DNA from: a virus
IMG/VR virus record: IMGVR_UViG_3300021963_000731
Span: 1 to 21,992 of that record
Strand: one strand, 5' to 3'
Length of the DNA: 21,992 nt
The first letter of the stretch is position 1. Each line of letters begins with the position of its first letter. Positions 5,660-21,600 of the stretch are shown in pieces. Under the pieces are notes generated by a model that saw nothing but the letters and a program-made list of their open reading frames with translations, was not told the DNA's origin and searched no databases. Position numbers and translations under genes: made by a program.

Positions 5660-7330
5660 TTAACTTTCTTTTCTTAGGTTGCTTTCGTAGTATTCAAATC
5701 GATCGTGTGTGATTGGAGTTGCAAGAAGTAGAGCACTTGTAAGATTTCCCGATTTAGTTAACTGAAAGCAATGCGACATCCAAGTTTGCTCGAACGGTCT
5801 GGCCCACTTGGTATTTAAAAACATTTTTTTATTTCCTTCTCGGGATACCATCTGCGGCCAATTACAATAGTAGATCTCACCGTCTGCGTAAGCTATACCC
5901 TCTAACGATCTGATAGTATTAAATTCGGTTCTCGGTGCGTTTGGATCTAACCCCTGTTCAGGCAGTCTGTTATAATCTGGAAAATATGTAGCTCTAACAG
6001 GCTGTGGCACATTGTACCAGGCCCATTGAGTAGAGTTATTACCATAAACCTCGGTAAAGCACATCTTAAGAAAATCGTATCTACCTTTTAGCATTATCTT
6101 AAGTGAATTAGTAATAAGATCAGGTACATGCTGTCTGAAACCGTTAGAGCATATCTGATTATTAGGAGGATTTAAGAACATATCATCCTCTAAAAAGATA
6201 TAAAAATCAGAATCCGATGTATCAAAATGTTCTGCAGCAAATTGCCTACCGCCGCATATGCCAATATTATTCGCCATCTCTATTTGTATAAAGTCATACT
6301 TCGTACAAAGTTCGGTGTACGCTGGTATCTTTGATTTGTCGGTTGAATTATTTATTAGTATTTTTCTGCACTTGTCAAAGTCTTGTTGCCGTGACCATGT
6401 AATACAGGACCGTTCAAACTGATCTGGGCTATTAAAGGTTAGAGTGTATACTGAAATCTTATTATCCTCCACCTGCTTCACAGGTGGTATTGAGTACTCA
6501 GGTATTAACTTAATGTCGTTGTTTTTCATATCTTCGAAAAACTTATTAAGTACGCCGTCACCGTTTATTGTGCTTCTCCTGAAGATATCAGGCTTCAGGT
6601 AAGCCATTACCGTGAAGATAGATTCTTCTGTTCCCATATACCCGGTCGTTAACGTAGATTTTAGCAGACCATGATAGTATGAATTATATTCTCGTATAGT
6701 GGACTTATGACCGCCAAATATTCCGCCTCTGCACACATATTCTACATTTTCGGTATTGCATAGTTCGTTCATTTTTGGTCGTGAGAATCCATGTATCTCC
6801 GGACCGGTTGCATAAGGAAATGATACAAACAAGAACGGATCCAGATATTTTGTAATTTTATCTAGTACCTTATCATGCGAGAAGTATCCCGGGTGAACCG
6901 TGTTAGTTATACCTCCATCAACCCACACAAAGTAATCAGTATTAAATGGGTTGAATATGGTGGCATCGTTCAGTAAGAAATACTTTGACATCACTAGAGG
7001 GTTATACATCTCTAGTGATGCTTGAGCTGAGTCTTTTAACCAGCTAGCCTGAGCTAGCCATTTTTCATCTGTACGGATCTGCTGTACATCTGAGTAAAAG
7101 TCGAATTTTCTGAACCAGTCAACTTCCCGGGTAATTACCCGGTGATTAGATAACGGTGTAATTTCATCTCTGTATTGATCCTCCACGTATACCAGTACGT
7201 TACTGTCTTTTAAGCTGGCAAGAAGCTTGTTAAAGTTAGTAAGATAGTGCTCAAATGGTCGCTTAAACCCTTCGCCTGCATTATCGCGACCAATATTCCA
7301 TATACCGGTTACTATAGTAAGATTTGACAT
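5660..7330 (-). CDS. Two-domain glycosyltransferase: HtrL/YibB (WlaTC)-like plus GT-A
   Basis: This 556-residue protein appears to join two sugar-transfer domains. Residues 4-270 resemble the HtrL/YibB/WlaTC family: the opening TIVTGIWNIGR, a YL..F..L segment near 29, NVLVYVED at 44, FVWVDGG at 134-140 with an acidic metal-type motif, and RGGIFGG at 201-207. Residues 292-540 resemble a GT-A (family 2-like) transferase: ISVYTLTFNSPDQFERS, KILINNSTD, NIGICGGRQFAAE and FLEDDMFL at 379-386, where EDD replaces the usual DxD nucleotide-sugar site. There is no membrane segment, so both halves would act in the cytoplasm on a soluble or peripheral acceptor. It is the last gene of the seven-gene cassette, two bases after the methyltransferase stop. 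The N-terminal family call is moderate and the GT-A call stronger. Donor and acceptor are unknown. Confidence 0.8.
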   Translation of the reverse strand: MSNLTIVTGIWNIGRDNAGEGFKRPFEHYLTNFNKLLASLKDSNVLVYVEDQYRDEITPLSNHRVITREVDWFRKFDFYSDVQQIRTDEKWLAQASWLKDSAQASLEMYNPLVMSKYFLLNDATIFNPFNTDYFVWVDGGITNTVHPGYFSHDKVLDKITKYLDPFLFVSFPYATGPEIHGFSRPKMNELCNTENVEYVCRGGIFGGHKSTIREYNSYYHGLLKSTLTTGYMGTEESIFTVMAYLKPDIFRRSTINGDGVLNKFFEDMKNNDIKLIPEYSIPPVKQVEDNKISVYTLTFNSPDQFERSCITWSRQQDFDKCRKILINNSTDKSKIPAYTELCTKYDFIQIEMANNIGICGGRQFAAEHFDTSDSDFYIFLEDDMFLNPPNNQICSNGFRQHVPDLITNSLKIMLKGRYDFLKMCFTEVYGNNSTQWAWYNVPQPVRATYFPDYNRLPEQGLDPNAPRTEFNTIRSLEGIAYADGEIYYCNWPQMVSREGNKKMFLNTKWARPFEQTWMSHCFQLTKSGNLTSALLLATPITHDRFEYYESNLRKES

Positions 7331-7332
7331 AT

Positions 7333-7959
7333 TTATTTCTGCTTACAAACCCAAGCGACATTCTCGAAAACCTCCTGCTTATACGATGACAGACAATTAT
7401 CCAGGCAAGCCTGATTAATATCATCATCCGTGATCTCGCACCAATTCCATACCTTGTGATCGATATACTCCTTAAAAAATGTTCTATCTCGAGCATAGTC
7501 ATGAGCTAATATAAAATCGCCAGATTTTATATATTTAGCTAGTGTACGAAATTCGCCAATCTTGTATCCTCCGTCACAAAGCACTATAGTAACGCCGTCG
7601 CCCTTAATGTAATCAGTAATGGAATGATCTGCGTGATACCAATCAGCAGAAAAGACGTTCTCGACTCTAATATCTATGCCGCGATTTCTTATATCATCGT
7701 ACCAAGGGTGTGAGTGAATATCATATGATAGTATTTTCGTCTGTAATTGTAGCTCATCACAGCATATCTTTAAAAATGTCGTAAATCCACCTAGTGCAGT
7801 TCCGATCTCCAGAATCCGAGCTGGCTTAACTTCAGCTAAAAATCTATAAAATACTTCATATGCGCCGTGAAACTGTTGTGCAGCATGCTGCTGAAATGCA
7901 GATATGCTATCGCTTGTCTCTAAATTAGACCGTCTAGTTATATGCTCGTCAATATTCAT
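7333..7959 (-). CDS. SAM-dependent methyltransferase, Methyltransf_24/CmcI-like
   Basis: This class I methyltransferase has a SAM-binding loop ARILEIGTALGGFTTFL, an acidic residue after strand 2 (LSYDIHSH), a strand-4 motif IVLCDGGYK and a following GDFILAHDY. Those last motifs are typical of the cephalosporin-hydroxylase/CmcI-like and Methyltransf_24 proteins found in surface-glycan clusters. I chose the ATG at 7959 (208 residues): a TTAGG lies about nine bases before it. The frame is open to a TTG at 8013, which would add 18 basic residues and shrink the gap to the upstream gene to 14 bases, so that start is possible. It probably methylates a sugar made or displayed by the neighbouring transferases; the substrate cannot be read from the sequence. 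Confidence 0.85.
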   Translation of the reverse strand: MNIDEHITRRSNLETSDSISAFQQHAAQQFHGAYEVFYRFLAEVKPARILEIGTALGGFTTFLKICCDELQLQTKILSYDIHSHPWYDDIRNRGIDIRVENVFSADWYHADHSITDYIKGDGVTIVLCDGGYKIGEFRTLAKYIKSGDFILAHDYARDRTFFKEYIDHKVWNWCEITDDDINQACLDNCLSSYKQEVFENVAWVCKQK

Positions 7960-8027
7960 ACGCTTTAACCTAATATCTCTCTGTAATAGGCACCGATTAG
8001 ATTGTACTTCCAACTTGTTATCATAAA

Positions 8028-8588
8028 TTAAATATCTACTACGCCGGTACCTGTGCAGTGACCAATACTGGTTATATTAAACTTAGTATCGGTAATATCA
8101 TCCCAGAAACTCATCATTTTATTATTTAGGTGAATGTCATCTAAAATTAGAATACCTTTAAATCCTACTGCTTTGATGTGATCTAGAAATGTACGCTCAA
8201 ATGTACCTGTATGCATTGTATCGAGTAAAATTACTGACGATTTTTTAATCAGCTCTTGATATTTATCAGCTAAAATATTATCAACATTAAAGGTAATATT
8301 ACTAGGTGGATCTTCGATATCTAGCTGATTATAAAGATTAAATGAATAAACTCGGTTTGTGTGGTTCGCTGCAAGAGCTAACGCAGAGCATCCTTTAAGT
8401 GTCCCTATATCCAAAATATCTGCATTGTTGATGCACTTAGATATATACGTAAGGAGCCTGTAATGCTCCGCACCTGCAGCTGCAGTATAGTAAGATCTAT
8501 ACTCTAAGCTATGAATTTTTTTACTATAATTCATCTCCAAAGCATTAAGCTCTTCTGCAGTGATTTTACCTATATCGCTATATTGCAT
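8028..8588 (-). CDS. SAM-dependent methyltransferase, Methyltransf_24-like (second copy)
   Basis: This 186-residue class I methyltransferase shows ILDIGTLKGCSALALA (SAM loop), a YSFNLYN strand-2 end and VILLDTMHTGTFERTFLDHI, followed by GFKGILILDDIHLN, the family's strand-5 pattern with an acidic pair. A conserved-looking HCTGTGVVD closes the protein. It shares its general plan with the methyltransferase just downstream but is too divergent to be a recent copy. The YN in place of the usual YD at the end of strand 2 is unusual, because an acidic residue normally binds the SAM ribose there. Its start follows the upstream transferase stop by two bases, so the two are translated together. Substrate unknown; sugar O-methylation fits the context. 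Confidence 0.82.
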   Translation of the reverse strand: MQYSDIGKITAEELNALEMNYSKKIHSLEYRSYYTAAAGAEHYRLLTYISKCINNADILDIGTLKGCSALALAANHTNRVYSFNLYNQLDIEDPPSNITFNVDNILADKYQELIKKSSVILLDTMHTGTFERTFLDHIKAVGFKGILILDDIHLNNKMMSFWDDITDTKFNITSIGHCTGTGVVDI

Positions 8589-8590
8589 AA

Positions 8591-9304
8591 TTAAAATTGC
8601 GTAAATAATTTACCGCTTTTGTCGTAAAACTCAAACATTTGCGGTAAATGCCGCCTAAATGCATCATATTCATACTTCATATCCGATAGCAGTGCAGATA
8701 CACCTATTTCAAATCCATCGGGGTAATTTCTTATATCGTTATGAACAGAGTACCACAGAAATTTTTCCCATTCGTGAACAAAAAGTCTAAACTTCCAGTT
8801 ATTTTTAAATATAAGAAACTGCTCATTCACAACGTGAGCTTCATCCCATTTAGTATGATCGAATACATTATAGTCCTTCAACTTTGTCTCAAAGAAGCAA
8901 TTATGTAGATCTTGCTTGTGATCACCGATTTTAGCAGGTCGCTCAAACAGCATATCTAAACCGCTGCAATCCATATAATCAAATAATTTCAGCACATTCT
9001 CTTCCTTAAAATTTTGTGTCATGCGCCAATCACCGTCATTGTATATAATATAATCGTATCCCTTATCCAGACAGTACTTTAAAGACAGTACCTTTAAATT
9101 TAAAAGAAAGGTGAACCCACTACCACTACCGTGGTACTGCTCGAGTTCTAATACGTCAATATTTATTCTTGGAGCTACTACACAACTACGATCGGTGGTT
9201 ATATTAAAGTCGGCTGAACATCTCTCACTATAGAGTGTGTAGTTATCTATAGAATTACTGAGATACGACTCACCTACTGCGAGTGTTGTAAAGCAATATT
9301 TCAC
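8591..9304 (-). CDS. Putative GT-A glycosyltransferase
   Basis: This 237-residue protein starts with YCFTTLAVGESY, the usual first strand of GT-A transferases of the glycogenin/GT8 or capsule-synthesis kind. YDYIIYNDGDWRM at 83-95 contains DGD (90-92), a DxD-type metal and nucleotide-sugar site. Later features include an ADFNITTD segment near 31, WDEAHVVNEQFLIFKN and an HEWEKFLWY helix. There is no membrane segment. The start codon is GTG at 9304. It is the only start in frame, because a TAA lies eight codons upstream, and it has no ribosome-binding site. A 69-base gap separates it from the GT10-type gene upstream. Donor sugar unknown. Confidence 0.72.
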   Translation of the reverse strand: MKYCFTTLAVGESYLSNSIDNYTLYSERCSADFNITTDRSCVVAPRINIDVLELEQYHGSGSGFTFLLNLKVLSLKYCLDKGYDYIIYNDGDWRMTQNFKEENVLKLFDYMDCSGLDMLFERPAKIGDHKQDLHNCFFETKLKDYNVFDHTKWDEAHVVNEQFLIFKNNWKFRLFVHEWEKFLWYSVHNDIRNYPDGFEIGVSALLSDMKYEYDAFRRHLPQMFEFYDKSGKLFTQF

Positions 9305-9373
9305 GGGACAACGTTTATGTACAAATTAATGTAGGGGTTAAGGTATTCGTCGACAATTCGAAGTTTATTCATA

Positions 9374-10354
9374 CTATGAATCTACGATCTTGTCTAAGAA
9401 GTTTAGGGTATGTTCGTATGACATATACTCAGGTAGTTTATTATCTACATAGATTGGTTCTGTAATATATTTTCTATATAATGTCTCGTCAGTATCAATC
9501 TTCTTTACGAGATCCAGAAAATCATTAAGATCATCGAACTCGTGTAAGTTTATAAACGAGTTAGGATTAAAGTTGTATTCTAGTATATGTTTATTGCCGT
9601 AGAATATAGGGATAGCACCACTTATATACGCATGGAAAATCTTCTCCTGTAAGATATAGGGAGTATTACTATAGTGAATTGCTATGTTAAATTTGAACTT
9701 ACTAAAAAACTGTATCTTCTCCCTATATGTCAACCCATCCATCCTGCCAGAGTAAATTGAATTTAACCATTGATGTCTATCTAGCGTATCTGCTCCAAAT
9801 AAATTTTGGCGCCATGGACCTGAGGAAGATACTGTTTTATACTCGCAAAGCTTATCGAATACTTTACCTCTAAATTCATTATTTGAATTTTGTGTAATAG
9901 AGCAAAATCCAGTATTTCGATTAGAAATCGTATTAAAATCTCTCTGTTGAGTCAACCAGTTGTGCGGTGAGTCTACAATTCGGCATTCATTAAAAAGGGT
10001 CCACACATCGATAGCTCCTGACGGTTGATGTAGATATTTTGGATTAGAGATCTTTTGGTATCCAATAGCCCAATGATTGTCGAGGTGTAGGTTTGAATTA
10101 AAATCGGCTACCTCACCTGATACATACACAAACTTTATATTCTTGTCATTGTGATCGTATAGAAGAGCCTTGCAATTTAAGAACGTATCCATTACATTAC
10201 CGTCATAATGCAGGTTACTAGAGATTACAATATCCGGATTAACTGCATCGATAATTACATTATACTTTTTAGATAGTATAAAAATAAAATACGTCAACCA
10301 GCTGTGCATACCGTGGCCAGAGAAGCTTTCTCTTGATATACGGATAGTCTTCAT
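9374..10354 (-). CDS. GT10-family (alpha-1,3-fucosyltransferase-like) glycosyltransferase
   Basis: This 326-residue protein carries the GT10 C-terminal signature in order: FKFNIAIHYSN (220-230), YILQEKIF (233-240), GAIPIFYG (246-253) and NPNSFINL (263-270). Known GT10 enzymes use GDP-fucose and have a TEK triplet in the second motif; here it is QEK, with the basic residue kept. The N-terminal half is variable, as is normal for the acceptor side of the family. There is no signal peptide or membrane anchor, so it would be cytoplasmic like the bacterial members. Its ATG overlaps the upstream gene's stop (ATGA). The fold and family are well supported. That the donor is GDP-fucose rather than another sugar is likely but not certain. 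Confidence 0.88.
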   Translation of the reverse strand: MKTIRISRESFSGHGMHSWLTYFIFILSKKYNVIIDAVNPDIVISSNLHYDGNVMDTFLNCKALLYDHNDKNIKFVYVSGEVADFNSNLHLDNHWAIGYQKISNPKYLHQPSGAIDVWTLFNECRIVDSPHNWLTQQRDFNTISNRNTGFCSITQNSNNEFRGKVFDKLCEYKTVSSSGPWRQNLFGADTLDRHQWLNSIYSGRMDGLTYREKIQFFSKFKFNIAIHYSNTPYILQEKIFHAYISGAIPIFYGNKHILEYNFNPNSFINLHEFDDLNDFLDLVKKIDTDETLYRKYITEPIYVDNKLPEYMSYEHTLNFLDKIVDS

Positions 10355-11049
10355 AGGGTTAGCAAATGCGCGATCTTTACCGTTGCATCACCAAAGGGAC
10401 CGTTGTCGTGTACAATGTACGGCGATATACCCTTCAGCTTAGTGTTGTCTATACCATCAACAAAATTCCTAGCCTCGAAGGTACTAAAAAAGAACTGTCT
10501 CTTATAATCGAGTATAATATCATCGTGTAGGAGGTATTCTATGGTCCATTTGCCCTGATCATCTATACCCTCCTGATATCGTTCCGTTTTAATTCGAGTT
10601 AAATGGGTGATTATCTGATCTGTATATCCGAAGTAAGTGCCAGAGTTTAGATACTTAGCATCATCAGCTCCTACTTTTTTATCGTATAAATGAGTATAGT
10701 CGGTATTAGGCCAGAGTCCCTTCTCGGCACCAAATATAATCGATCGATCTAGTGCTGTAAATTTTTCTACTATATCAATAGGTGACTTGTAAAAGTTTGT
10801 ATCCTTTGCATCTAAAAATAATATATACCTGTACTTGCCGTAGATATTGTCCGTAATATATTCTAGTAGTTTCTCCACCTTGTAGAAGTACAGTTTATCG
10901 TAGTATGACCCTTCTTGTAGTAAGTTGTTGAATCTTGCTATATGAATATCCTTCTGATCGAAGAACTTTGATGCATTATTATAGCAAAGTGGATAGGCGT
11001 GAACTGGGTAATCAAAAAGAATAGTCAATAAGGCGACGTCTTGTACCAT
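10351..11049 (-). CDS. PLOD/procollagen-galactosyltransferase-like glycosyltransferase
   Basis: This 232-residue protein resembles the glycosyltransferase domain of PLOD (lysyl hydroxylase)/procollagen galactosyltransferase-type proteins. YILFLDAKDTNF (75-86) gives the DxxD metal site, IIFGAEKGLWPN (104-115) matches their vvfsAE..cWP block, YLNSGTYFGY (133-142) matches fLNSGgfiG, and DDQGKWTIEYL (163-173) followed by IILDYKRQFFFS matches the DDQ...lD...iFQ ending. These eukaryotic relatives glucosylate or galactosylate hydroxylysine on proteins, but many bacterial and viral members act on other acceptors. The gene starts 13 bases after the upstream stop and overlaps the next gene by four bases, so it sits firmly in the operon. 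Confidence 0.82.
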   Translation of the reverse strand: MVQDVALLTILFDYPVHAYPLCYNNASKFFDQKDIHIARFNNLLQEGSYYDKLYFYKVEKLLEYITDNIYGKYRYILFLDAKDTNFYKSPIDIVEKFTALDRSIIFGAEKGLWPNTDYTHLYDKKVGADDAKYLNSGTYFGYTDQIITHLTRIKTERYQEGIDDQGKWTIEYLLHDDIILDYKRQFFFSTFEARNFVDGIDNTKLKGISPYIVHDNGPFGDATVKIAHLLTL

Positions 11050-11063
11050 ATATATCGATATAT
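11050..11063. repeat. Perfect 14-base palindrome at a gene junction
   Basis: ATATATCGATATAT exactly fills the space between the ATG at 11049 and the stop codon beginning at 11065. It places a small hairpin or dyad directly before the start codon of the PLOD-like gene, where a ribosome-binding site would be expected. It could be chance in AT-rich DNA. Confidence 0.4.
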
Positions 11064-12316
11064 TAACTTACACCATTACCAATATTGCCGGTGATTCTAT
11101 CACACCATCCCTTACTCACACTATGAGGCCACACCAGCCAGCTGACAGGCAGCACATCCGTTTTAAACTCTCGCCACAACTTACAGTACTTGTCAGGATC
11201 CATCATCATTTGCATAATCTCGCTTTTAGTTGCATCTTCACGATATATATCATTGCCGCTCTTATCTTTAAGTGTTACACACCAAAAATCGTAATCAGTT
11301 TCAGGTACTTGTTCGTATCTAATATCTATACAATGCTTGAAAATTGGGCACAGGTTCTTTTCAAACTCCTCATGAGTCGCATACACCGGGACAGGCAGAG
11401 GCAGCTTATCTAAGGTATGCTTGAGAGCAGCTCGTCTTCCGAAGCATATGCCGGCGTATTCCTCGTACTGAGCTAATGTCCGGGCTGTACCGAAATCATA
11501 TTTACCGAAATCTATATCCTTCTTCTCATTATCCATCTTGAATAACTTACGATTTCTTAAATGTGAATTTGTGTTTCTTATGCCCCAGGTATTATCATCG
11601 TCCCAATGCTTAGTTCTACCTTTACGAGTATATTCATGCCATGCAACTACTCTATGAGGGTGAAACAAGTCGTAGCCGTGGGTATATGCGCGAGCTGCAA
11701 GATTAATCTCTTCGCCGTGAAAGTAATAGTGAGGGTCGTACGGTACTTCGGTTACAAACGATCCTAGAGTAAATGCAAAATGAGCGGAAAAGAATCGTGC
11801 AGGAAGAGGGAGAGTTAACGATTCCCAGTCAGGAATTGCACCCGGTAAAAAGAACACTGCACCTTCAGGTATGAACCTATCGAAGTCCATCTTCCATGGA
11901 ATATTAATTCTACCTGCCGGATCGTTCTCAGGGTCATATGAAGGAATGTATCCTGTAATTAGCGGTTTAGGGTGACCGGCAGCCTGTAAGTCCTTAATCA
12001 TCTTAATGCATGTTTCATCCCATCTATCAGTAAATCGATGGTGCGAATCGAGCATTAATACGTACTCTTCATTTGCATAGTAATTGTTTAGTATCGAACG
12101 AGCCCAACACGTACCATCAGTTAGCGTGTGCGGTATATCGATGATAGTAACCCTAGCATATGACCTTATCTCATCAATTGTATCACTAGAAGCATGCTGC
12201 CAAGCGATACATACGTTAATTTCATCAGGCGAAGCAGCCTTTGCATATAGATCCTTAACCGTATTAACTAATTCAGGATCGCGGTACGCTGCGATTTGTA
12301 CGTATATCGTGCTCAT
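11063..12316 (-). CDS. GlcNAc-transferase-family glycosyltransferase (Skp1-GnT-like)
   Basis: This 417-residue protein matches the family of cytoplasmic GlcNAc transferases typified by Dictyostelium Skp1 hydroxyproline GlcNAc-transferase, which occurs widely in bacteria and phages. It opens IYVQIAAYRDPEL, the family's first strand. YVLMLDSHHRF (85-95) carries the DSH metal site. YYFHGEEINLAARAYTHGY (197-215) is the acceptor and donor block, and HPHRVVAWHEYTR (219-231) follows. Residues 300-417 form a variable C-terminal part not needed for the fold. No membrane segment. It is the first gene of the sugar-transfer cassette. The 36-base gap upstream has a TATAAT (12330 to 12325 on the minus strand) but no convincing -35 box, so a local promoter is only possible. 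Confidence 0.85.
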   Translation of the reverse strand: MSTIYVQIAAYRDPELVNTVKDLYAKAASPDEINVCIAWQHASSDTIDEIRSYARVTIIDIPHTLTDGTCWARSILNNYYANEEYVLMLDSHHRFTDRWDETCIKMIKDLQAAGHPKPLITGYIPSYDPENDPAGRINIPWKMDFDRFIPEGAVFFLPGAIPDWESLTLPLPARFFSAHFAFTLGSFVTEVPYDPHYYFHGEEINLAARAYTHGYDLFHPHRVVAWHEYTRKGRTKHWDDDNTWGIRNTNSHLRNRKLFKMDNEKKDIDFGKYDFGTARTLAQYEEYAGICFGRRAALKHTLDKLPLPVPVYATHEEFEKNLCPIFKHCIDIRYEQVPETDYDFWCVTLKDKSGNDIYREDATKSEIMQMMMDPDKYCKLWREFKTDVLPVSWLVWPHSVSKGWCDRITGNIGNGVS

Positions 12317-12352: not shown

Positions 12353-12829
12353 CTACCCATTTATACCAAAAAGTCTGCATAGAGTTGATACATCATCGGT
12401 ATCAATCTGAACTGATGCTATCTCTGTTACAGTTTCGGTATCGTAGTCACCGTAAGGGTTTTCATCGGAATTATTGACAGCAGGTACATAAGTAGAGGGC
12501 TCAAATTTAACAATATTCCTGCCTCGATCAATGATATGTCTCATTAACTGAAATGTATGAATCTCAGTTTGCGCTCTGCTTACAAATTCCTTAATAACGT
12601 TAAGATTAACCTTACCCGCTAAGTCCTGGAACGGGTTTGCGTAGGTACCGAATACATACAAAGGTATATACTTTGACGCTATAACTGCGCAATCCTTAAT
12701 AACATGGTACGCAGCAGGCTTTTGCACTGTTATTCCATTGTCGGGCTTATCGGCGCATTTTTTACTTGGTCCAAGTAGTTTACCCTCCTTAGCCTTACTA
12801 TTAATACAAACTATCTCTTCAAATGTCAT
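12353..12829 (-). CDS. Hypothetical protein (158 aa)
   Basis: I do not recognise this protein. It is soluble. The first 40 residues are polar and basic, and the middle (YHVIKDCAVIASKYIPLYVFG) is moderately hydrophobic but interrupted by charges. A helical stretch follows (FVSRAQTEIHTFQLMRHIIDRG), then an acidic, probably flexible segment (NNSDENPYGDYDTET) and a closing DDVSTLCRLFG. No catalytic motif stands out. It lies four bases after the dCMP deaminase stop and before the sugar-transfer genes, so it belongs to the same transcript. The ATG has no Shine-Dalgarno; the octamer GATAAATA just upstream (12842 to 12835) overlaps the deaminase's last codons and may be chance. Confidence 0.6.
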   Translation of the reverse strand: MTFEEIVCINSKAKEGKLLGPSKKCADKPDNGITVQKPAAYHVIKDCAVIASKYIPLYVFGTYANPFQDLAGKVNLNVIKEFVSRAQTEIHTFQLMRHIIDRGRNIVKFEPSTYVPAVNNSDENPYGDYDTETVTEIASVQIDTDDVSTLCRLFGING

Positions 12830-12833
12830 ATAA

Positions 12834-13256
12834 TTATTTATCTTTGAGTACTTTAAGTTCTATGCCGAATTCTTGAGCAAGCTGCTTTGTAAGATTATTG
12901 TCGTAGTTAGGCAGCTCGTTAGTATAATATACTTTCTTGATACCCTTCTGAGCAATAAGTTTTATACACTCACAGCATGGCATATGAGTAACAGCCAGGT
13001 AATCAACTTCACCAGGCTTACAGTAATTAAGAACATTAGCCTCCGCGTGTATTACTCGCTTACGTCTACTATCTCGGTCAGACCAATCGATATTGACTCC
13101 AGATGGTGCGCCGTTATAGCCTAAGATAACACTCTTATCTTTTTTTATAGCTACTGCACCCACTTGAACGTACGGATCTTCACTCCTCGCTGAAGCAATA
13201 GTCTTCGCGAGGGTCATTGCCGTAGTCGGCCAATCAAAGCGTTTTCTTCCGGTCAT
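12834..13256 (-). CDS. dCMP deaminase
   Basis: This enzyme converts dCMP to dUMP, the substrate for thymidylate synthase, and so works with the reductase encoded at the left end of the window. The 140-residue length is typical for the family. The zinc site is complete: HAE at 70-72, with E72 as proton shuttle, and PCCEC at 93-97, giving C94 and C97. The usual family context is present (YVQVGAVAIKKD, GYNGAPSG, HMPCCECIKLIAQKG). The start overlaps the end of the nuclease gene by 23 bases. There is no strong ribosome-binding site, so translation is probably coupled to the upstream gene. It is separated from nrdA/nrdB by about 10 kb of other genes. Confidence 0.95.
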   Translation of the reverse strand: MTGRKRFDWPTTAMTLAKTIASARSEDPYVQVGAVAIKKDKSVILGYNGAPSGVNIDWSDRDSRRKRVIHAEANVLNYCKPGEVDYLAVTHMPCCECIKLIAQKGIKKVYYTNELPNYDNNLTKQLAQEFGIELKVLKDK

Positions 13257-13929
13257 GATTTAATATATTAATAACATCTGTCTTTAGATATGCAATAGGA
13301 TAAAGGGAGAAGGTACCGGTTATACGATCGTAGTATAGGATTGCTAACTTACGTACCTTTCGACCGGTCAATAAGCTGTAGAGATACGCGTATGCCGAGA
13401 GCTGCAGTGAATATGTAGTAAACTCACACTCCATAAGATGCTCTACGGGCGAGTGCAGAAACTTATTGTAAGATGAATAGACATTAAACTTCTTATTTGT
13501 CTTTATATCAAAAACATCGAAGTACGGTCCTTCAGTATGAATAATATCTGCAGTACCAGCTACCCTATACTCATGACTCCATACCCTGTGTTCGCTGAGA
13601 ACTTCAGCAGGTAAGCTACATACTTCGTCGAACGAACTAATTATCAATTTTTCTTCAGGTGTAGCTCCGTTAAAGAAGCTTCTGTCTTTAAGAAAGTTCT
13701 CAATAATTTTATGGATATGCGTACCAAAGACTAAAGACTCCTCGTTAGTACGCTGCCATTCATCTAACACCTCCTTTTGAGATACTCCTCTTTTATTAGC
13801 AACCGCCTTACTAATTTTTTCCTTTTCAAAAGGCTCCTTATACTTGCCGAGTAAGGTAGTTACTGACGTATACTGCTCACGAGTGAACTCGTTTATATAC
13901 GTATGAGAGGCTTCATTAAATATAACCAT
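13234..13929 (-). CDS. PD-(D/E)XK superfamily nuclease (Cas4/RecB-type exonuclease fold)
   Basis: This 231-residue protein shows the motif order of the RecB/Cas4-like nucleases: GTHIHKIIENFL (69-80), a WSHEYRVAGTADII segment (117-130) with the metal-binding aspartate D128, FDIKTNKK (140-147) with the D141-x-K143 pair, and LQLSAYAYLY (175-184), the QxxxY helix. All catalytic positions seem intact, so it should be an active nuclease, most likely an exonuclease for host-DNA breakdown or recombination. No helicase domain or iron-sulphur cysteine cluster is present, which argues against a true Cas4. It overlaps the dCMP deaminase by 23 bases, a link between DNA breakdown and nucleotide supply. The short start-site region has GGGG too close to the ATG to be an ideal binding site. 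Confidence 0.88.
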   Translation of the reverse strand: MVIFNEASHTYINEFTREQYTSVTTLLGKYKEPFEKEKISKAVANKRGVSQKEVLDEWQRTNEESLVFGTHIHKIIENFLKDRSFFNGATPEEKLIISSFDEVCSLPAEVLSEHRVWSHEYRVAGTADIIHTEGPYFDVFDIKTNKKFNVYSSYNKFLHSPVEHLMECEFTTYSLQLSAYAYLYSLLTGRKVRKLAILYYDRITGTFSLYPIAYLKTDVINILNHDRKKTL

Positions 13930-13939
13930 TCCCCATAAA

Positions 13940-14161
13940 TTACTCGGTAAACAGAATAAAACAAGCAGTTATAGTGGTTTCAAAAACAGTTATGTGACAG
14001 CAATAAAATCCTTGTGTAATAAGACGATTACCTATTACTGAGAAGTATTCCGTATTGACATTTAAGATGAGACTACACCTATTCTCGTCAACGATAACGT
14101 CAGCAAAGAATTCAGCACAAAAGGCTTGTGCACAGTATAGCTTGTTTACTTCGGTGCTCAC
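13940..14161 (-). CDS. Small hypothetical protein, GTG start (73 aa)
   Basis: This protein is not recognised. It has no methionine after the start; the GTG at 14161 is the only usable start and is preceded at good spacing by GAAGAG, which supports it. Five cysteines and many aromatic and beta-branched residues (HITVFETTITACFILF at the C-terminus) suggest a small beta-rich or membrane-associated protein. It sits between the putative fibre-tip gene and the nuclease with gaps of nine and ten bases, so it is in the same transcript. Because it immediately follows a possible adhesin gene, a chaperone role is conceivable but unsupported. Confidence 0.5.
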   Translation of the reverse strand: MSTEVNKLYCAQAFCAEFFADVIVDENRCSLILNVNTEYFSVIGNRLITQGFYCCHITVFETTITACFILFTE

Positions 14162-14170
14162 TTATACTCT

Positions 14171-15232
14171 TCATTGGTAGATAAGTCTCGGGGTATTTAC
14201 AACATTTAGCGTTAGTGTCATACCACCGGGGTTTGTCCCCCACTTTGCCCCGTCACCTGATGTACCAGGCCCTGGGCCTATATAGAATTTGATTACAGAT
14301 CCGGGAGATATCGGATACTTACTCAACAAAATAGTAGCGGTCGCTGTTGCCTGACCGACTCCACCTGCGTGATGTGATGCAGTACCTACTGCATAGCATA
14401 GGGGAGCGAATGACATGCTATAAGACGATACTTTTAATGATACCATAGCCTTCGTCGACTGACCGATAGATATTTCATACCCTACACCAGTATATGCATT
14501 AAATATCAGAGCGAGTCTACGTAATAACGTGCTATTGTTTTGCGTAAAGATATTAGTATTGCTTACTTGAGTTAGGGGATTTAATTTCAGTTCTCCGAGA
14601 GTATTACTTAGTATCTCAGGAGCTATTGTTATATCTCGGCTTGCAGCAAGTGAGGTAATTATATCTATAAGTTTCGTTTTTCTCTCAAATAGCGATTCAC
14701 TTATAGATGGAGGTAAAGCCTTGCTAATTATAGGATGAGTATCGTTATTAATCTGCATCCACAAAGTTACATCGTGGCCTATTTTACCAAACCACGATGC
14801 ATTTATGGCCCCGGTAGTTAATGCGAAAGTATCAGCAGAGTTAGTTGACGATCCCTTTATTTTGATATCAAGAACACTACTAATACTACCCAGGCTCTTT
14901 GCCCCATACGGGGCTCTAAGTATACCGGTCGGCGATCGGTAGTATAGGTCCGGGATGTCTTGACTCTTGGTAACTAGTCTGGAGTTCCCCCCTATAAAAA
15001 GTATGTAGTTACGTTTATAATTAATCGCACCTCGAAGACTACTAAACTTAATAGGATCATTACCGGTAGGTATATCAAAGTCCTGACCTCTAAAATCCCG
15101 TAACCTATATGGCGCGGTATCAGGGCCAATTGTAGGCGATATTTTTATACCCGATAGAGTCCCTATTGTTGACAACGACAAACTCCCAGTAACCGGTAAT
15201 ATACCTGTAGTTGTTGCTATTGGGTATGACAT
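14171..15232 (-). CDS. Virion protein, possible tail-fibre tip/adhesin with glycine-rich C-terminus
   Basis: This 353-residue protein begins with SLSLSTIGTLSGI and YRLRDFRG, similar to the PISLSDI...L.EYRG opening shared by many phage structural proteins, then SSLRGAINY. The middle is Ser/Thr/Asn-rich and beta-prone. The C-terminal third has GTASHHAGGVGQATATAT and FYIGPGPGTSGDGAKWG, clustered glycine turns like those that form receptor-binding loops in phage adhesins. No enzymatic motif is visible. It starts exactly after the S74 fibre gene's stop, with no gap, the position taken by the separate adhesin (gp38) in many T4-like phages. I infer an adhesin, but homology to gp38 is not shown and its length is greater than some. 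A minor virion protein is the alternative. Confidence 0.6.
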   Translation of the reverse strand: MSYPIATTTGILPVTGSLSLSTIGTLSGIKISPTIGPDTAPYRLRDFRGQDFDIPTGNDPIKFSSLRGAINYKRNYILFIGGNSRLVTKSQDIPDLYYRSPTGILRAPYGAKSLGSISSVLDIKIKGSSTNSADTFALTTGAINASWFGKIGHDVTLWMQINNDTHPIISKALPPSISESLFERKTKLIDIITSLAASRDITIAPEILSNTLGELKLNPLTQVSNTNIFTQNNSTLLRRLALIFNAYTGVGYEISIGQSTKAMVSLKVSSYSMSFAPLCYAVGTASHHAGGVGQATATATILLSKYPISPGSVIKFYIGPGPGTSGDGAKWGTNPGGMTLTLNVVNTPRLIYQ

Positions 15233-16663
15233 TTATTTTAGCTTACTATTTAGTTCGCGTATTGCCTCAACTAGCAAGGGTATTATCTTTTCGTAGTGCA
15301 CACCTAAGTAACCATCGTAACGAGTGCCTACCGCTTCTGGCACTTGTTGCTGTACCTCCTGCGCTATTAGTCCTATATCGTGACCGGTATGGTGGGTTGG
15401 ACCAATCCAGTCAAACTCTACCCCGCGAAGTTTTAAAATCTTTTCGAGGGCACCTGGGATTGTTACAATATTCTGCTTTAGTCTTTGATCTGAGGTATAG
15501 AAAGCAGTAATATCGCCAGTAGCACTTAAATCGCCCTTAAGAGTTACGTTACCCGTTAGAGCTATAGTTGTAGCATTAACTGTGAAATTGGCAGAAGGTA
15601 AAGAAAAAGTAATAGGACCATCTTTAAAATAAGTATTACCACTTATAGACACATTACTATTATCGTATCTCTGAGATGTATTAATACCTAGGAAGTTTAC
15701 ATCAGTATTGCGTACATTTAAAATAGAGTTATCATGTGAACCTACTGTGAGTAGAACTTGACCGGTAACTGGTGAATCGTTATAAACTTGAAGGGCTGAT
15801 AGACCAGGTGCATTGTCATTAGTTATATCAATTATGAATGATGACGTCGCACTGATGACTGTTTGCCGACTAGAAAAAATCTCCTGCGAAAAGGTGCTCC
15901 CAGTGATATATAAGCTACTGTTAATCTTGACCAACCCACCAGTAAACTCAAATACTGGACTGGCTGTTAGCTGAGTGAAAGTACCGCTTGCTAATCCGTT
16001 TTTAATTGCAAAATTACGGGTACCATCATCGATCTTAAACGTTAAAGCGTTGGAGCTCGATAATAGACCTGAACCACCTAAAGTAATCGTGGATGCATTG
16101 TTAGTTGCTGAAAGTAGGATCCTACTGGTAGAACTGGCATCTAAAATAGAAATGGGGCCCTGGGAGGTAATTTTCGAGTCAGACTGGTAATTCTCAACAG
16201 TTGATCCTACGTATATTGCACTCGTTAGAGCAACATTAGACTTAACTGTTAATAAATTAGTATCAAATTGCAGTTTACCGTCGCCGTATGCAACAGTAAA
16301 CCCAGTACCGGCGAAGGAAGTGGTAATTCTGAGACCGCCATTATTGTATTCTATATTAGAACCAGAAGCAGGTGCAACAGAATACCAGGCTGAGTCTGTT
16401 CTCGCATATAGTATACCTAAGCTCGTATTAAAATAGAGGTCGCCTTCTTGAACATCAGCTGTAGGCACTGTAGCCCGGACACCGTGAAATTTATTACCTA
16501 TCGGGGCTTCGTTTCCTTGGATCCCGTTACCGACGAATAAACGATGGGTGTCAGTCGTGTAGCCTAATTCGCCTGTAGCGAGAGTTGAGTTTAGCCTATC
16601 AGAATCAGGCCCCTTTCTGACTACTAACCTAATTATTGAATTATTATTAATTTCTATTGACAT
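15233..16663 (-). CDS. Tail fibre protein with C-terminal S74 self-cleaving chaperone
   Basis: This 476-residue fibre has three parts. Residues 8-60 hold a head module (VVRKGPDSDRL, GELGYTTD, RLFVGNG) shared by phage fibre and appendage proteins. Residues 60-385 are a repetitive Ser/Thr/Asn/Gly-rich stalk expected to form a trimeric beta-structure. Residues 391-476 are an S74 intramolecular chaperone: S391 and K396 in SDQRLK form the cleavage dyad, followed by GHDIGLIAQEVQ, and by HYEKIIPLLVEAIREL, the closing helix. The chaperone trims itself off after the fibre trimer folds, so the mature fibre should end near residue 390. The head module is duplicated in the upstream gene. AGG eight bases before the ATG may be the ribosome-binding site. 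Confidence 0.92.
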   Translation of the reverse strand: MSIEINNNSIIRLVVRKGPDSDRLNSTLATGELGYTTDTHRLFVGNGIQGNEAPIGNKFHGVRATVPTADVQEGDLYFNTSLGILYARTDSAWYSVAPASGSNIEYNNGGLRITTSFAGTGFTVAYGDGKLQFDTNLLTVKSNVALTSAIYVGSTVENYQSDSKITSQGPISILDASSTSRILLSATNNASTITLGGSGLLSSSNALTFKIDDGTRNFAIKNGLASGTFTQLTASPVFEFTGGLVKINSSLYITGSTFSQEIFSSRQTVISATSSFIIDITNDNAPGLSALQVYNDSPVTGQVLLTVGSHDNSILNVRNTDVNFLGINTSQRYDNSNVSISGNTYFKDGPITFSLPSANFTVNATTIALTGNVTLKGDLSATGDITAFYTSDQRLKQNIVTIPGALEKILKLRGVEFDWIGPTHHTGHDIGLIAQEVQQQVPEAVGTRYDGYLGVHYEKIIPLLVEAIRELNSKLK

Positions 16664-16664
16664 A

Positions 16665-16976
16665 TTAACGGCCTATAAAGACGTAGTGAGCAGACAGTGT
16701 GCTATTTGTACCTGTTAATGCATACAGGTGATTATCAGATGTGTTGAATACTGTATCGCCCTGCACTACGTAGTTAGTATAAGGTTGGTTAAAGTTCGAT
16801 ACAATATGCAGTTTACTCGCGACCGGGTTACCACCAGTGGTTACCCCGTCTCCTACGAATAGTCTAGGGGCATTTGTAGTATAGCCGAGCTCACCTTCTG
16901 CGAGTTTAATAGATAATCTATCTTCATTAGATCCTCGTCTCACTAAAAATTTTACAATATTTGTTGGTGTTGCCAT
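16665..16976 (-). CDS. Short fibre-head protein, paralogous to the N-terminus of the S74 fibre
   Basis: This 103-residue protein consists almost entirely of the fibre-head module: FLVRRGSNEDRL, GELGYTT, RLFVGDG, then VQGDTVFNTSDNHLYAL. Aligned without gaps over 50 residues to the next gene's N-terminus it is identical at 25 positions by my count, and the FNTS...LYA block that follows also matches. The pattern is common in phage fibre and hyaluronate-lyase-type appendage proteins. With no stalk or tip it may be a connector or adaptor subunit, or a remnant of a longer fibre that lost its distal part. AGG close to the ATG provides a ribosome-binding site. The S74 fibre gene begins one base after its stop codon. 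Confidence 0.8.
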   Translation of the reverse strand: MATPTNIVKFLVRRGSNEDRLSIKLAEGELGYTTNAPRLFVGDGVTTGGNPVASKLHIVSNFNQPYTNYVVQGDTVFNTSDNHLYALTGTNSTLSAHYVFIGR

Positions 16977-16986
16977 AATACCTAAA

Positions 16987-16994
16987 TATTTATC
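16987..16994 (-). promoter_or_regulatory. Possible variant late promoter octamer (GATAAATA)
   Basis: GATAAATA on the minus strand differs by one base from the T4-type late octamer and sits in the 21-base gap before the short fibre-head gene, ten bases from its ATG. It could boost late expression of the fibre genes. One-mismatch matches are common in AT-rich DNA, so this is weak. Confidence 0.3.
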
Positions 16995-16997
16995 ACT

Positions 16998-18617
16998 TTA
17001 ACCGATTAATACAGCCTCGTTCTCAGAAAAACTAGAATCCTTAATTATAGTGTTGCTCTTGCCTATCATAAGCTCCTGCAGGTTATATATCTTCTCCAAC
17101 CCTCTGTTAATGACAGTATTTAGATATGCCTCGTTATTACCGGCAAAATGATCTAAAGTTATACTATAGCCGGTGAGATCTAGATCGGCCAACAGAAAGT
17201 ATAAATACCCGCTTACCAGCAAATTATTATTGCTGTCGAAGGTACCGAAGAATCTACCTATTATCTTATCCTTTAGTCTGATGTGGTTTATTAATAGTTT
17301 CTGTATTGCTTTATTAATAACCCAGGTTTGAGAATACTCGCTAGCTAATAGCTTAATATCATCTAGTGAGTATACTTCAAAATCATTAACTGTTAGTACG
17401 TCAATAAAACTTCCTGCATCGATAGCATTAATAAATTTGCGAACATTGGTACTAGTCGAAGAGCTGAGTATATACACATCGTCTGACCCCGGCTGAGCTC
17501 CGGCTATACTAGAGCCGTGGTGAAATGTCTCGGTTGTCGGTATACTGAACCTATAGAGAGAGTATTTACCGATCGGATTACCTGGTTTGCTGGCGTAGAA
17601 CTTCCATATATTTTTATTAGTAACGATACTGTATGCATTATTAAAGCTCTTACTAGTAAAGATGTTTAATATACTCTCCCCGCTCGAGGTAAACTTCGAG
17701 AAGTTTACAATTTCATAATTCTTTATATCTTCGTCAAATACCACGATATTATTACCCTCGGTACCTACGTATATTTTATTTGTTGCACTCTCGCCTGCTA
17801 TTACCTTTGCTTTATCATCTCTGAATATATCAACTCGTTGAATAGATTTTATAAAGTTAAGATCAGTATCGTATATTTTTATTGCAAAATTATCTACATC
17901 TAGAACGTACAACCTATCTTTGAATATAGTGATTCCCCCGATATTATTAAATTTATACCTCTTTTCTGCATTACCCGTGCCACCAATTGCTCTAGCAACT
18001 ACCAGAGTGTCGGGATATATTCTATCCGTCAATAAACCGGTTAAATCGTACTTGTATATATTATTATAAAATGAATCGGCGATATATAAATTATCGTTGT
18101 AAAGCGTTGCAGCTACTATATTTCGAAAAGCGAGATTTTGATCTACATCGACCTTATCCGTAGAGAGTATTACAGTAATTGTATTACTGACCTGATCTGA
18201 TCTAGATAGGATAACCGCACTAAGTGAGCATGTTACAAATAAGTTCTGCTCCAGAGCGGAGCTATACTGTACCTCATTTATAATTGCATCATTAAACGCC
18301 GATAGTCCAATAGTACTGAAATTACGAAACGATGCCGGGTTAGTACCGGATGGTGCCCACCCGAATGTACCGCTAAGAACTCCTGCTGTGCCTCTAAGAT
18401 CACTCGGTAGCACGTTACTACCGAGCTTTGTTAGGCTATATATATATAAAAAGTTTTTATATAGTCGCTCGAACGAGCTATTTAACGCTCTATAAGTACT
18501 AAGTTCATTCGGCTGTATCTTAATAGAATCAATCTTATACGGCAGCTCAAATGACTCATTAAAAAATCTATCGTGCTTAAATTCGGAACTGTTTAATATT
18601 GCAGATATGAGTTCCAT
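16998..18617 (-). CDS. Virion-type protein with NHL/beta-propeller-like repeats
   Basis: No exact family is recognised for this 539-residue protein. Residues 1-70 are mixed and aromatic-rich (RALNSSFERLYKNFLYIY). From about 165 to 420 there are repeated blade-like blocks: NDNLYIADSFYNNIYKYDL (174-192), then KFNNIGGITIFKDRLYVLD (222-240) leading into NFAIKIYDTDLNFIKSI, and TNKIYVGTEGNNIVVFDED (279-297). The G-I-T-x(6)-LYV-D-x(3)-I-x-IYD pattern is that of NHL-type beta-propellers, which usually bind proteins, RNA or glycans. The C-terminal 110 residues look helical (VINKAIQKLLINHIRLKDKII). No enzyme site is visible. The start codon overlaps the previous gene's stop by one base (TAATG), and both neighbours are structural, so a tail or fibre-network role is likely. 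Confidence 0.65.
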   Translation of the reverse strand: MELISAILNSSEFKHDRFFNESFELPYKIDSIKIQPNELSTYRALNSSFERLYKNFLYIYSLTKLGSNVLPSDLRGTAGVLSGTFGWAPSGTNPASFRNFSTIGLSAFNDAIINEVQYSSALEQNLFVTCSLSAVILSRSDQVSNTITVILSTDKVDVDQNLAFRNIVAATLYNDNLYIADSFYNNIYKYDLTGLLTDRIYPDTLVVARAIGGTGNAEKRYKFNNIGGITIFKDRLYVLDVDNFAIKIYDTDLNFIKSIQRVDIFRDDKAKVIAGESATNKIYVGTEGNNIVVFDEDIKNYEIVNFSKFTSSGESILNIFTSKSFNNAYSIVTNKNIWKFYASKPGNPIGKYSLYRFSIPTTETFHHGSSIAGAQPGSDDVYILSSSTSTNVRKFINAIDAGSFIDVLTVNDFEVYSLDDIKLLASEYSQTWVINKAIQKLLINHIRLKDKIIGRFFGTFDSNNNLLVSGYLYFLLADLDLTGYSITLDHFAGNNEAYLNTVINRGLEKIYNLQELMIGKSNTIIKDSSFSENEAVLIG

Positions 18618-21600
18618 TAATTAATCCAGTTTATATTGTTTACTGCTACGTTAGCCGGTAGTGTACTCTGTAGTCTATCAAGGATTCTTGCTACTAGTAA
18701 GGTCTTGAGTTCGTCGCTCTCAATATTAGTATTGACTAGAGAAATATCTAGAGTGGATGATTTGATCGCAGGCACATCGAGCTTAAAGAATCGCTCGATC
18801 TCATCATTGAGATTTCTCTTACCGGCTGGCAAGTTTACTAGCATAGTCTCTCCTTCGTGTCTGCTATTTGCAATAGCAGCTATATCGCTATCATTCAGAG
18901 GCTTACTGTAGATACGTAGATCAGATAGCTTAGTGGCGGTCGCATAAAAGTACAGCCCCCTTAGGTATTGCGATAATATTGCGTTATTGAAGTATGGGGT
19001 AGATCCTATAATAAATGGCGTAGTTAAGCCCGGGCTCCGGGCATACTTGCCCGGTTCGAAGGTAATAGCCTGCATTTTAATGCCATTAATAAATATTGCA
19101 AGTTCACCTTGAATATTATCAAATCTGACACTGATATTATGTATCCCACTATCTACATTCGATAGAGATTGAACTAATGATAAAGTCGAATCATCGCGGT
19201 ATATTAAACTTGGTAAGGTCACTCTAACTGTTAGTGAATTATCTGTTAGGTGAGGCACTACTTCCCGTCGGAGATAATCGCCATTAGCTATATTAATAGC
19301 ACCTACTGGGGCATCAAAATCAGGTAAATCAAGAGTAGATATAATTAATCCGCTACTACTGATCTTATATATACGAGTACCCGCAGCACCGGCTACTGCG
19401 GCTTGCTGAGTTATAATAGTATTATACTCATAGCCTTGCGGAGTAAACTCACCTGCGAAATCAATATCTACATTTCTAAAATCAGGGTCGTAGGTTAATG
19501 CTGTAAGAACTAGCTGCCGAGTGCTAGTATACTTCGATAAGCGAGCATCTTGTAAAATATAGAAAAACCCGTCCTTATCTATATTAAATGCATCTATAGG
19601 ATTCGTAGCACTAAGAAACGGGTAATCAATATTTAACGATAAATTCCACTTCCTCATCTCTGAATTATCCTGTATATAATATAGTACATCATCTACTAAT
19701 TTTACAGAATAGGAGCTTGTGCAGTAAAATTTATTGTCGTAAATAACACTGCTTCTCGCCGCAGATAGAGGCATAGAGTTGAGTCCAATTATTGCACTCG
19801 AACTCGGTTCAAATATTGTTTCGCTAATAAAATCAAAGCCGATAACTTTATTAGCAGATATGGAATTTACTACAAAGCAAGCTGAGTTACTATTATAGAA
19901 AGAGCTAGTTACATACTCGAAGGGAATAATATCAGTCTGTGCTTCAGATATAATATTATGATTAGCAGTTAATTTATATATCTTATTATTAGCGAGCACT
20001 ACATAATACCCTTCAAATTCCTTTAATCTTAGTATACTGAGTACGTTGGCTTCGAATTTAACCTCATCTAGCACCTTACCCTGACCGTTGAGAATGTTGA
20101 TAACATTATCCTGAGGCAGCATCAAATAAGGGGTAATGTTAGTTTGATTAAAAATACCAAAACCGGTATTAGTATAGTTACCTATAAATTGATAGGCAAA
20201 ATCAGATCGCCAATTACCTACATCAATATCAAATGCAATAGTAAAGCAATTATCGTTGGCATAGATGCTAGTAAGTGGGACAGTTTGTGAGTATTGCTGA
20301 CCATCGAATGCATACTGTCGAAGTTCGCTTACTTCGCTGAGTAGCTGTGTATTGTTTGTATAGTAATTTACTAGATCTTTTTGAATAAGGTCGCTGCTTA
20401 GCAGATCTACGTAATTGGAAAGATCTTGACCGCCTATATGGTGGTAAGCATAATATACCCCCTTTTCAATGTATAAATTGCTCTTTGTATCAAATATAAT
20501 TCGACTAGAGGGCGCTGTACCACAGAGTATATCAAATTCTGTGGTATAGGTATCGTCGATTTCATTTAATACTGCCAGAGCACTAAAGTAGGAAATTTTC
20601 TGTGGGTTATAATACCTATCTACCCACACTACATCAGACGACTGAGAGGAGCCTGATAACCAAGCGCATAAAAACTCTCCATTATTTTCATCGGTACTAT
20701 TACCGGTATATGAAAAGTCAGCATAATTAGCGCGCTTCTTAAAAATTTTGTCAGCTTTCAGTGGGTGATCGCTAGCTGCGGCTCCCTTACTGGCAATGTT
20801 ACTATCGTTAATATTAAGGCGGTCGAACGGAAAAGTATTAGTAGGTACGTGAAAATAAGTAATAGCATTCGGTTTAAATTCTATTTTTGAGGTAAATCCG
20901 GTATATGCAAGTATTATACTCTCAGATCCATGAACTTGCTGGGTACCAGTAAATAACTTTTTGTAATCTCTGTAAGTAAAGTCGTCTGTTAATACGTACG
21001 GGTCATTATCTGCGTTATTATTCTGAGGAGATAACTCGTTTTTAAGTGTGAGTATATTCACCGTAACATCCTCACCGGTAACATTACTATACTCAGTATT
21101 AATTATATAGTTATTTTTAATATCACGGCGTGAGGTAGTATCACTAGTATCTAGGGTATTAGATTGAGTTGATCTATCATATTTTGCACTAAACTCATTT
21201 AGTTCGTATGAATCCGTCGGATCTACGCGTGCTCTTAATTTTAAGATAGAATCTACTGGAAATGTATCCTCTGAACCTAGAGGCGGTTGCTTTAAGCCGA
21301 GAATATTTTCTGCAGGATTGAACGTTAGATAATATGGGAAATCTAGAACCTTTTTATAAAAAACTATATAATCATTATCTTCGTCATATACATAGAAAAA
21401 CACCTGCGGGTGAATTGGTCTACCGTCAAGGTAAAGTAAGTCAAACCGCGGAGCAAATCTTAAATTAAAACTATAGTCGAGCGATAGCAGATAGTCAGTA
21501 TTATTGTCATTATGATGAATTTCACATAGGATCTCACTTAAGAATACTATCTCAAAAAAGTTTTCATTTATAGGCAGTTTTGATATAGTAGTCGCTTTAC

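Follow-up and report, generated by a model that had tools for sequence, protein, structure and literature searches.

Conserved transferase bookends flank an exchangeable middle in a phage glycan locus often found beside threonine/proline-rich genes

Seven consecutive minus-strand genes on an IMG/VR virus fragment (IMGVR_UViG_3300021963_000731) encode predicted glycosyltransferases and methyltransferases, which raises the question of what these enzymes glycosylate and why a phage would carry them. The window analysed here is the entire fragment of 21,992 bases, and its genes are called g7 to g1 in the order of transcription. An earlier note, made from the window sequence, had described them as a phage glycan cassette. 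Comparison with relatives showed that this cassette represents a single variant of a widespread, exchangeable glycan locus present in many large aquatic phages, which has at least 50 arrangements and in which g7 and g1 are the fixed ends. Neither this bookend structure nor the threonine/proline (Thr/Pro)-rich genes that often adjoin it was visible from the window alone; both emerged from the relatives.

When 50,697 phage records were searched by tblastn, full-length g7 was found only in the jumbo phages XacN1, RAS14 and CM1, all of which also carry a full-length g1 a few kb from g7. The middles of XacN1 and RAS14 differ from that of the window and contain a carbamoyltransferase and other genes. 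A scan of IMG/VR with the single g1 sequence gave no relatives, and a scan with an alignment-based g1 profile gave at least 488 viral ones. Among the 80 best loci recovered with g1 alone, g7 was the first gene and g1 the last in 69, with 0 to 10 genes between them, and most of the other 11 run off the contig end. A set of 80 distinct loci, pooling those recovered with g1, g7, g4 and g6 and those from bacterial genomes, presented 50 different middles, whose 284 proteins fall into about 59 families, including carbamoyltransferase, pyruvyltransferase, FkbM- and CmcI-type methyltransferases, GT10, GT25, GT34 and PLOD. Gene sets near that of the window occur in L007 (a 315-kb contig) and in L039-L043.

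Between the fixed bookends, the middle genes are swapped together as one block. In three pairs of loci the end proteins are nearly identical (L116/L121, g1 97% and g7 98%; L111/L119, 91% and 98%; L034/L112, 89% and 97%) while the two members have no middle gene in common. At the DNA level, the ends of these pairs are 86-95% identical, an identity that is absent in between; its edges lie no more than about 4 bp from the g7 stop codon on one side and from the g1 start codon on the other. Near-identical ends, unshared middles and sharp DNA breaks together indicate block exchange. In addition, the GC content of the middle was lower than that of the ends in 66 out of 71 loci (0.307 versus 0.342, p=2e-12). 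Recombination at conserved ends with foreign cargo between them is, by analogy, the signature of O-antigen-type loci, and the present loci show all of its traits: flanks that are conserved, middles that lack homology between close relatives, and a lower GC content in the middle.

Several loci vary this layout. More than one g7 copy was seen in L035, L059, L060, L061, L068, L073, L085 and L103, in tandem in L059 and L060, which suggests a second initiator or an altered acceptor preference. In L008-L011, g7 is followed by two or three unassigned genes and then, contig permitting, by a short HtrL-only protein that replaces the fused g1. L131, on a contig binned as Alphaproteobacteria, is the sole locus with g1 ahead of g7 in transcription order. 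Cyanophage matches to the HtrL half of g1 were set aside, as they belong to clusters that also hold genes for making heptose and other sugars, a different arrangement.

The enzyme assignments of the earlier note largely stood. All seven open reading frames (ORFs) were confirmed at 5660-12316 with intact catalytic motifs (Table 1). Their intergenic gaps, from g7 to g1, are 13, -4, 69, 2, 14 and 2 bp, short enough to indicate an operon-like arrangement, and no terminator-like site was found on the minus strand from 14115 to 5660, as that note had claimed. Three families were recovered by Pfam above cutoff: g7 matched PF11397, the N-acetylglucosamine (GlcNAc)-transferase profile (2e-70, 238 bits, cutoff 21), g6 matched PF25342 GT_PLOD (1e-16, 61 bits, cutoff 27) and g5 matched PF00852 GT10 (6.5e-10, 39.4 bits, cutoff 23.9). 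In PHROGs, g7 matched phrog_24687 (525 bits, 1e-157). PF11397 corresponds to CAZy GT60, the family of the Dictyostelium Skp1 GlcNAc-transferase and the Trypanosoma cruzi polypeptide GlcNAc-transferase. The profile score and a conserved GT-A metal motif place g7 in that family: its DSH (DSHH) and HGEE motifs were invariant across 12 relatives, so that the DxH-type motif is kept, and its acceptor is a prediction. For g6, with a DxxD motif (DAKD, residues 80-83), the best match in the PDB was R699 (2.5e-10), a mimivirus protein, followed by LH3; the PLOD tag refers to the fold and not to the acceptor.

The remaining proteins required structural or weaker profile evidence; NCBIfam and PHROGs searches yielded little for the middle genes. 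The g4 protein, which had no Pfam match, was modelled with AlphaFold2 from an alignment of relatives as a GT-A fold (predicted local distance difference test score, pLDDT, 91). It has a DGD motif, and its closest folds by Foldseek were the GT6 alpha-1,3-galactosyltransferase and BoGT6a (template modelling score about 0.57), in agreement with the GT-A call of the earlier note. The fusion proposed for g1 was also borne out, since residues 3-258 matched PF09612 HtrL_YibB (5e-15) and the model, made in the same way (pLDDT 91), showed two consecutive GT-A domains; the C-terminal half had no Pfam assignment, an EDD motif is present, and the full-length fold matched LH3, COLGALT1, LARGE1 and the chondroitin polymerase K4CP. 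Both proposed methyltransferases have motif I and sub-threshold profile matches (g3 to Methyltransf_24, 0.03; g2 to RMNT_CmcI, 1.3e-4), and their relatives both map to a single ORF of 405 amino acids (L007:11745-12962) that scores above the RMNT_CmcI cutoff. The g2 start is likely Met19, a small correction to the ORF call, because the alignment of relatives begins at that residue.

No membrane segment was found in the seven cassette proteins (Kyte-Doolittle 19-mer maximum 1.40), and a membrane-like segment occurred in just 4 of 444 proteins across loci; the cassette also lacks donor-synthesis genes, as had been noted. One further suggestion, that the acceptor is a hydroxylated residue, gained no support. 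PF11397-type (GT60) enzymes can use threonine directly, and no PF13640 2OG-Fe(II) oxygenase, a prolyl-hydroxylase-like enzyme, was found in the window fragment, XacN1 or RAS14, so that hydroxylysine or hydroxyproline was rejected as a required acceptor. A weak PF13640 match (E 0.001) was seen in the contig of L007.

What the relatives offered instead was a class of neighbouring genes. The commonest neighbours of the locus share long repeats of threonine, proline and serine (TPTPTNTPTPSVTPS...), i.e. mucin-like sequence, and some of the repeat proteins carry further domains (GDPD, P-domain or PKD-like). An ORF was counted as Thr/Pro-rich when a 60-residue window held at least 25% threonine, at least 10% proline and at least 65% threonine, serine and proline together. 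Such ORFs occupied 42 out of 140 slots adjoining the locus in 73 viral loci, compared with 44 out of 1,419 ORFs in seven whole contigs (3.1%) and 7 out of 296 distant ORFs (2.4%). The likelihood of encoding these repeats was about 13-fold higher for flanking genes than for the remaining genes of the same phages, in a statistic that counts related loci as independent, so that its p-values are optimistic. Of 28 cassette contigs, 27 contain TPTxTPT sites, and most of them have tens to hundreds, against 0-2 for the reversed control pattern; XacN1 has 51 and RAS14 has 22. None occurred in ten large phages without the locus, chosen by us (RaK2, Atu_ph07, SCTP-2, G, phiKZ, PAU, P-SSM2, KVP40 and two Synechococcus phages), three of which are XacN1 relatives. 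The association also held from the other direction: g7 was found in 12 of 50 IMG/VR contigs picked solely by the Thr/Pro repeat and in none of 41 control contigs (Fisher p=4e-4). G016, which has homologues of nrdAB and of o18617 and o16998 from the window, carries Thr/Pro-rich ORFs directly at both sides of the locus.

An exchangeable locus that often lies beside genes for mucin-like Thr/Pro proteins suggests that such phages probably decorate the proteins of their own particles with sugars that vary. With reasonable confidence, we favour an explanation in which virion proteins are glycosylated in the cytoplasm, for most of these phages probably on mucin-like stretches, and the preference of the earlier note for a protein acceptor remains sound as an interpretation. 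Working in the host cytoplasm, the soluble, polypeptide-GlcNAc-transferase-like g7 would add the first sugar to serine or threonine of a phage protein. The middle enzymes of the window (PLOD-type, GT10, GT6-like and two O-methyltransferases) would then extend, branch and cap the glycan with host sugar nucleotides and S-adenosylmethionine as donors, and the two-domain g1 may contribute one or two more sugars. For the majority of these phages, virion proteins that contain mucin-like stretches rich in Thr/Pro, and whose genes often adjoin the locus, are the likely acceptors. With g7 and g1 conserved on either side of the other genes, homologous recombination within them could replace the whole middle and give a new phage surface glycan, as O-antigen loci do in bacteria.

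The isolate XacN1 comes closest to linking locus and virion. It has the same bookends (ORF330-ORF334), ORF334 being g7 (45% identity) and ORF330 being g1 (41%), but its carbamoyltransferase is accompanied by two other middle genes. Three Thr/Pro-rich genes come after its tail sheath and sheath-completion genes, and Thr/Pro-rich stretches were observed in six consecutive ORFs (ORF232-237; 122000-134000, L187); further examples are ORF350, ORF369-372 and ORF384. According to its report, at least two virion glycoproteins were detected and phage transferases were proposed as their makers; ORF334 was the sole member of the block counted as a glycosyltransferase there, and the bookend structure is not described (PMC5852040).

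Several points weigh against this explanation, besides the dependence among related loci mentioned above. The main text on XacN1 does not name the glycoproteins and gives no experimental tie to the locus (PMC5852040). Thr/Pro-rich ORFs are absent from the window fragment, and in G012, which is closely related to it, the cassette is about 27 kb away from the nearest such ORF. Moreover, g7 was missing from 38 of the 50 contigs picked by the Thr/Pro pattern, many of which are fragments or single-site matches. Finally, we infer the modified protein, the linkage and the sugars, as well as the order of enzyme action and the benefit to the phage.

The lack of Thr/Pro-rich ORFs in the window would agree better with a glycan placed on fibre or baseplate proteins rather than on mucin-like stretches, the Thr/Pro genes being adjacent through shared tail modules. 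The nearest structural genes of the window are indeed the S74/Mtd_N fibre gene and o18617/o16998, and L013 has a baseplate wedge gene upstream of the locus on the same strand. However, the Thr/Pro association holds genome-wide against relatives without the locus and recurs in two bacterial contigs where no tail module is visible, and we regard this alternative as unlikely. Even less probable is that the cassette alters the host cell surface during infection, by serotype conversion or superinfection exclusion. Phage glycosyltransferases with such a role are known, and the loci contain GT25, GT8-like and FkbM families, which are common in lipopolysaccharide and capsule loci, but the known systems need lipid-linked sugars, a flippase and membrane transferases, and the Thr/Pro-rich neighbours would be left unexplained. 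Masking of host receptors, raised in the earlier note, is without support, since gtr-type serotype conversion requires membrane proteins, absent from the seven proteins of the window and almost never encoded in these cassettes. Equally improbable is an oligosaccharide built on phage DNA to shield it from host nucleases, as in glucosylated T4 or YerA41: the window holds ribonucleotide reductase and dCMP deaminase genes, but in XacN1 and G016 a long distance separates nrdAB from the locus, the initiator family is of the polypeptide GlcNAc-transferase type, and DNA modification does not predict the association with Thr/Pro-rich genes. DNA stays a formal rival because YerA41 has an oligosaccharide-like substitution of about 1 kDa on thymidine (PMC9023294), yet XacN1 DNA was reportedly cut with the ordinary restriction enzymes BssHII, NaeI and SpeI, and direct sequencing using the polymerase chain reaction could read its ends (PMC5852040).

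Virion protein glycosylation of the kind favoured here also has partial counterparts elsewhere. The g7-g1 pair, with 0 or 1 gene between, is present in bacteria as well: on contigs assigned to Saprospiraceae, another Bacteroidia bin and Gemmatimonadota, and in the isolate Jiulongibacter sediminis. In the latter (L136:6947-7735, minus strand) and in the Saprospiraceae bin (L133:6510-7655, minus strand), the divergent neighbour of the pair encodes a Thr/Pro-rich protein with an RR-type, signal-like N-terminus, and one of the two ends in a Por secretion C-terminal sorting domain. Judged by eye from these N-termini, Tat-like export following cytoplasmic modification would be in keeping with soluble transferases. 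Jiulongibacter has a second PF11397 gene close by (L136:5948-6868).

In the Chlorella virus PBCV-1, virus-encoded transferases glycosylate Vp54. As in our proposal, soluble viral transferases and methyltransferases build a glycan that is branched and methylated, without calling on the secretory machinery of the host (cited in PMC5852040); however, that glycan is N-linked on the capsid of a eukaryotic virus and the genes are scattered rather than bookended. Bacterial O-antigen and capsule loci share the conserved flanks, the low-GC interchangeable middle and tailoring enzymes that differ between close relatives, but they make lipid-linked polymers with a flippase and a polymerase, whereas the phage locus has soluble enzymes and transferase bookends, and the window cassette contains no flippase, polymerase or membrane segment. 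We know of no conserved bookends with an exchanged middle in mycobacteriophages, which are different phages. Their own enzymes reportedly attach glycans to proteins of the capsid and tail (Freeman et al. 2023, cited in PMC12619734), and the present cassette likewise consists of phage-encoded soluble glycosyltransferases with their tailoring enzymes. A literature search for this locus, mucin-like phage proteins and phage O-glycosylation found no description, with most subscription papers outside its coverage, and is weak evidence of novelty.

Table 1. Features of the window and their place in the locus.
Feature	Coordinates	Strand	Remarks
g7: PF11397 (GlcNAc/GT60-type) polypeptide-GlcNAc-transferase-like	11063..12316	-	first gene, conserved 5' bookend, proposed initiator
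g6: PLOD-type GT-A glycosyltransferase	10351..11049	-	variable middle; PF25342
g5: GT10 (fucosyltransferase-family) transferase	9374..10354	-	variable middle; PF00852
g4: GT-A glycosyltransferase, GT6-like fold, DGD motif	8591..9304	-	variable middle; AlphaFold2/Foldseek
g3: Rossmann methyltransferase	8028..8588	-	variable middle; Methyltransf_24 sub-threshold, motif I
g2: CmcI/rhamnosyl-O-methyltransferase-like	7333..7959 (ORF opens TTG 8013)	-	variable middle; RMNT_CmcI sub-threshold
g1: HtrL/YibB domain fused to second GT-A domain	5660..7330	-	last gene, conserved 3' bookend; PF09612
Lysozyme-like gene	4978-5655	+	convergent with g1, whose end is 4 bp away
Upstream context outside the locus: o12353, dCMP deaminase, exonuclease, S74/Mtd_N fibre (15233-16663), o16998, o18617	12353..21943	-	

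Outside the cassette, homologues of o16998 and o18617 sit just downstream of the bookend locus in G016, and o18617 had no tblastn match among isolated phages. The S74 fibre protein carries an Mtd_N-type N-terminus, and an adjoining small ORF (16665-16976) resembles a copy of that N-terminus, possibly a fibre-tip exchange arrangement judging from the sequence.

Altogether, we lean towards classing the system as phage mucin-type O-glycosylation with Thr/Pro virion acceptors and a cassette-switched glycan, with a smaller bacterial version acting on Thr/Pro-rich exported proteins. If this is true, phages represented by hundreds of environmental contigs would change the chemistry of their surface through the same kind of locus exchange by which bacteria vary surface antigens. 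Interchangeable virion glycans influencing adsorption, grazing and recognition by lectins or antibodies would be predicted, and the loci would constitute a collection of soluble enzymes for O-glycan synthesis on Thr/Pro peptides.

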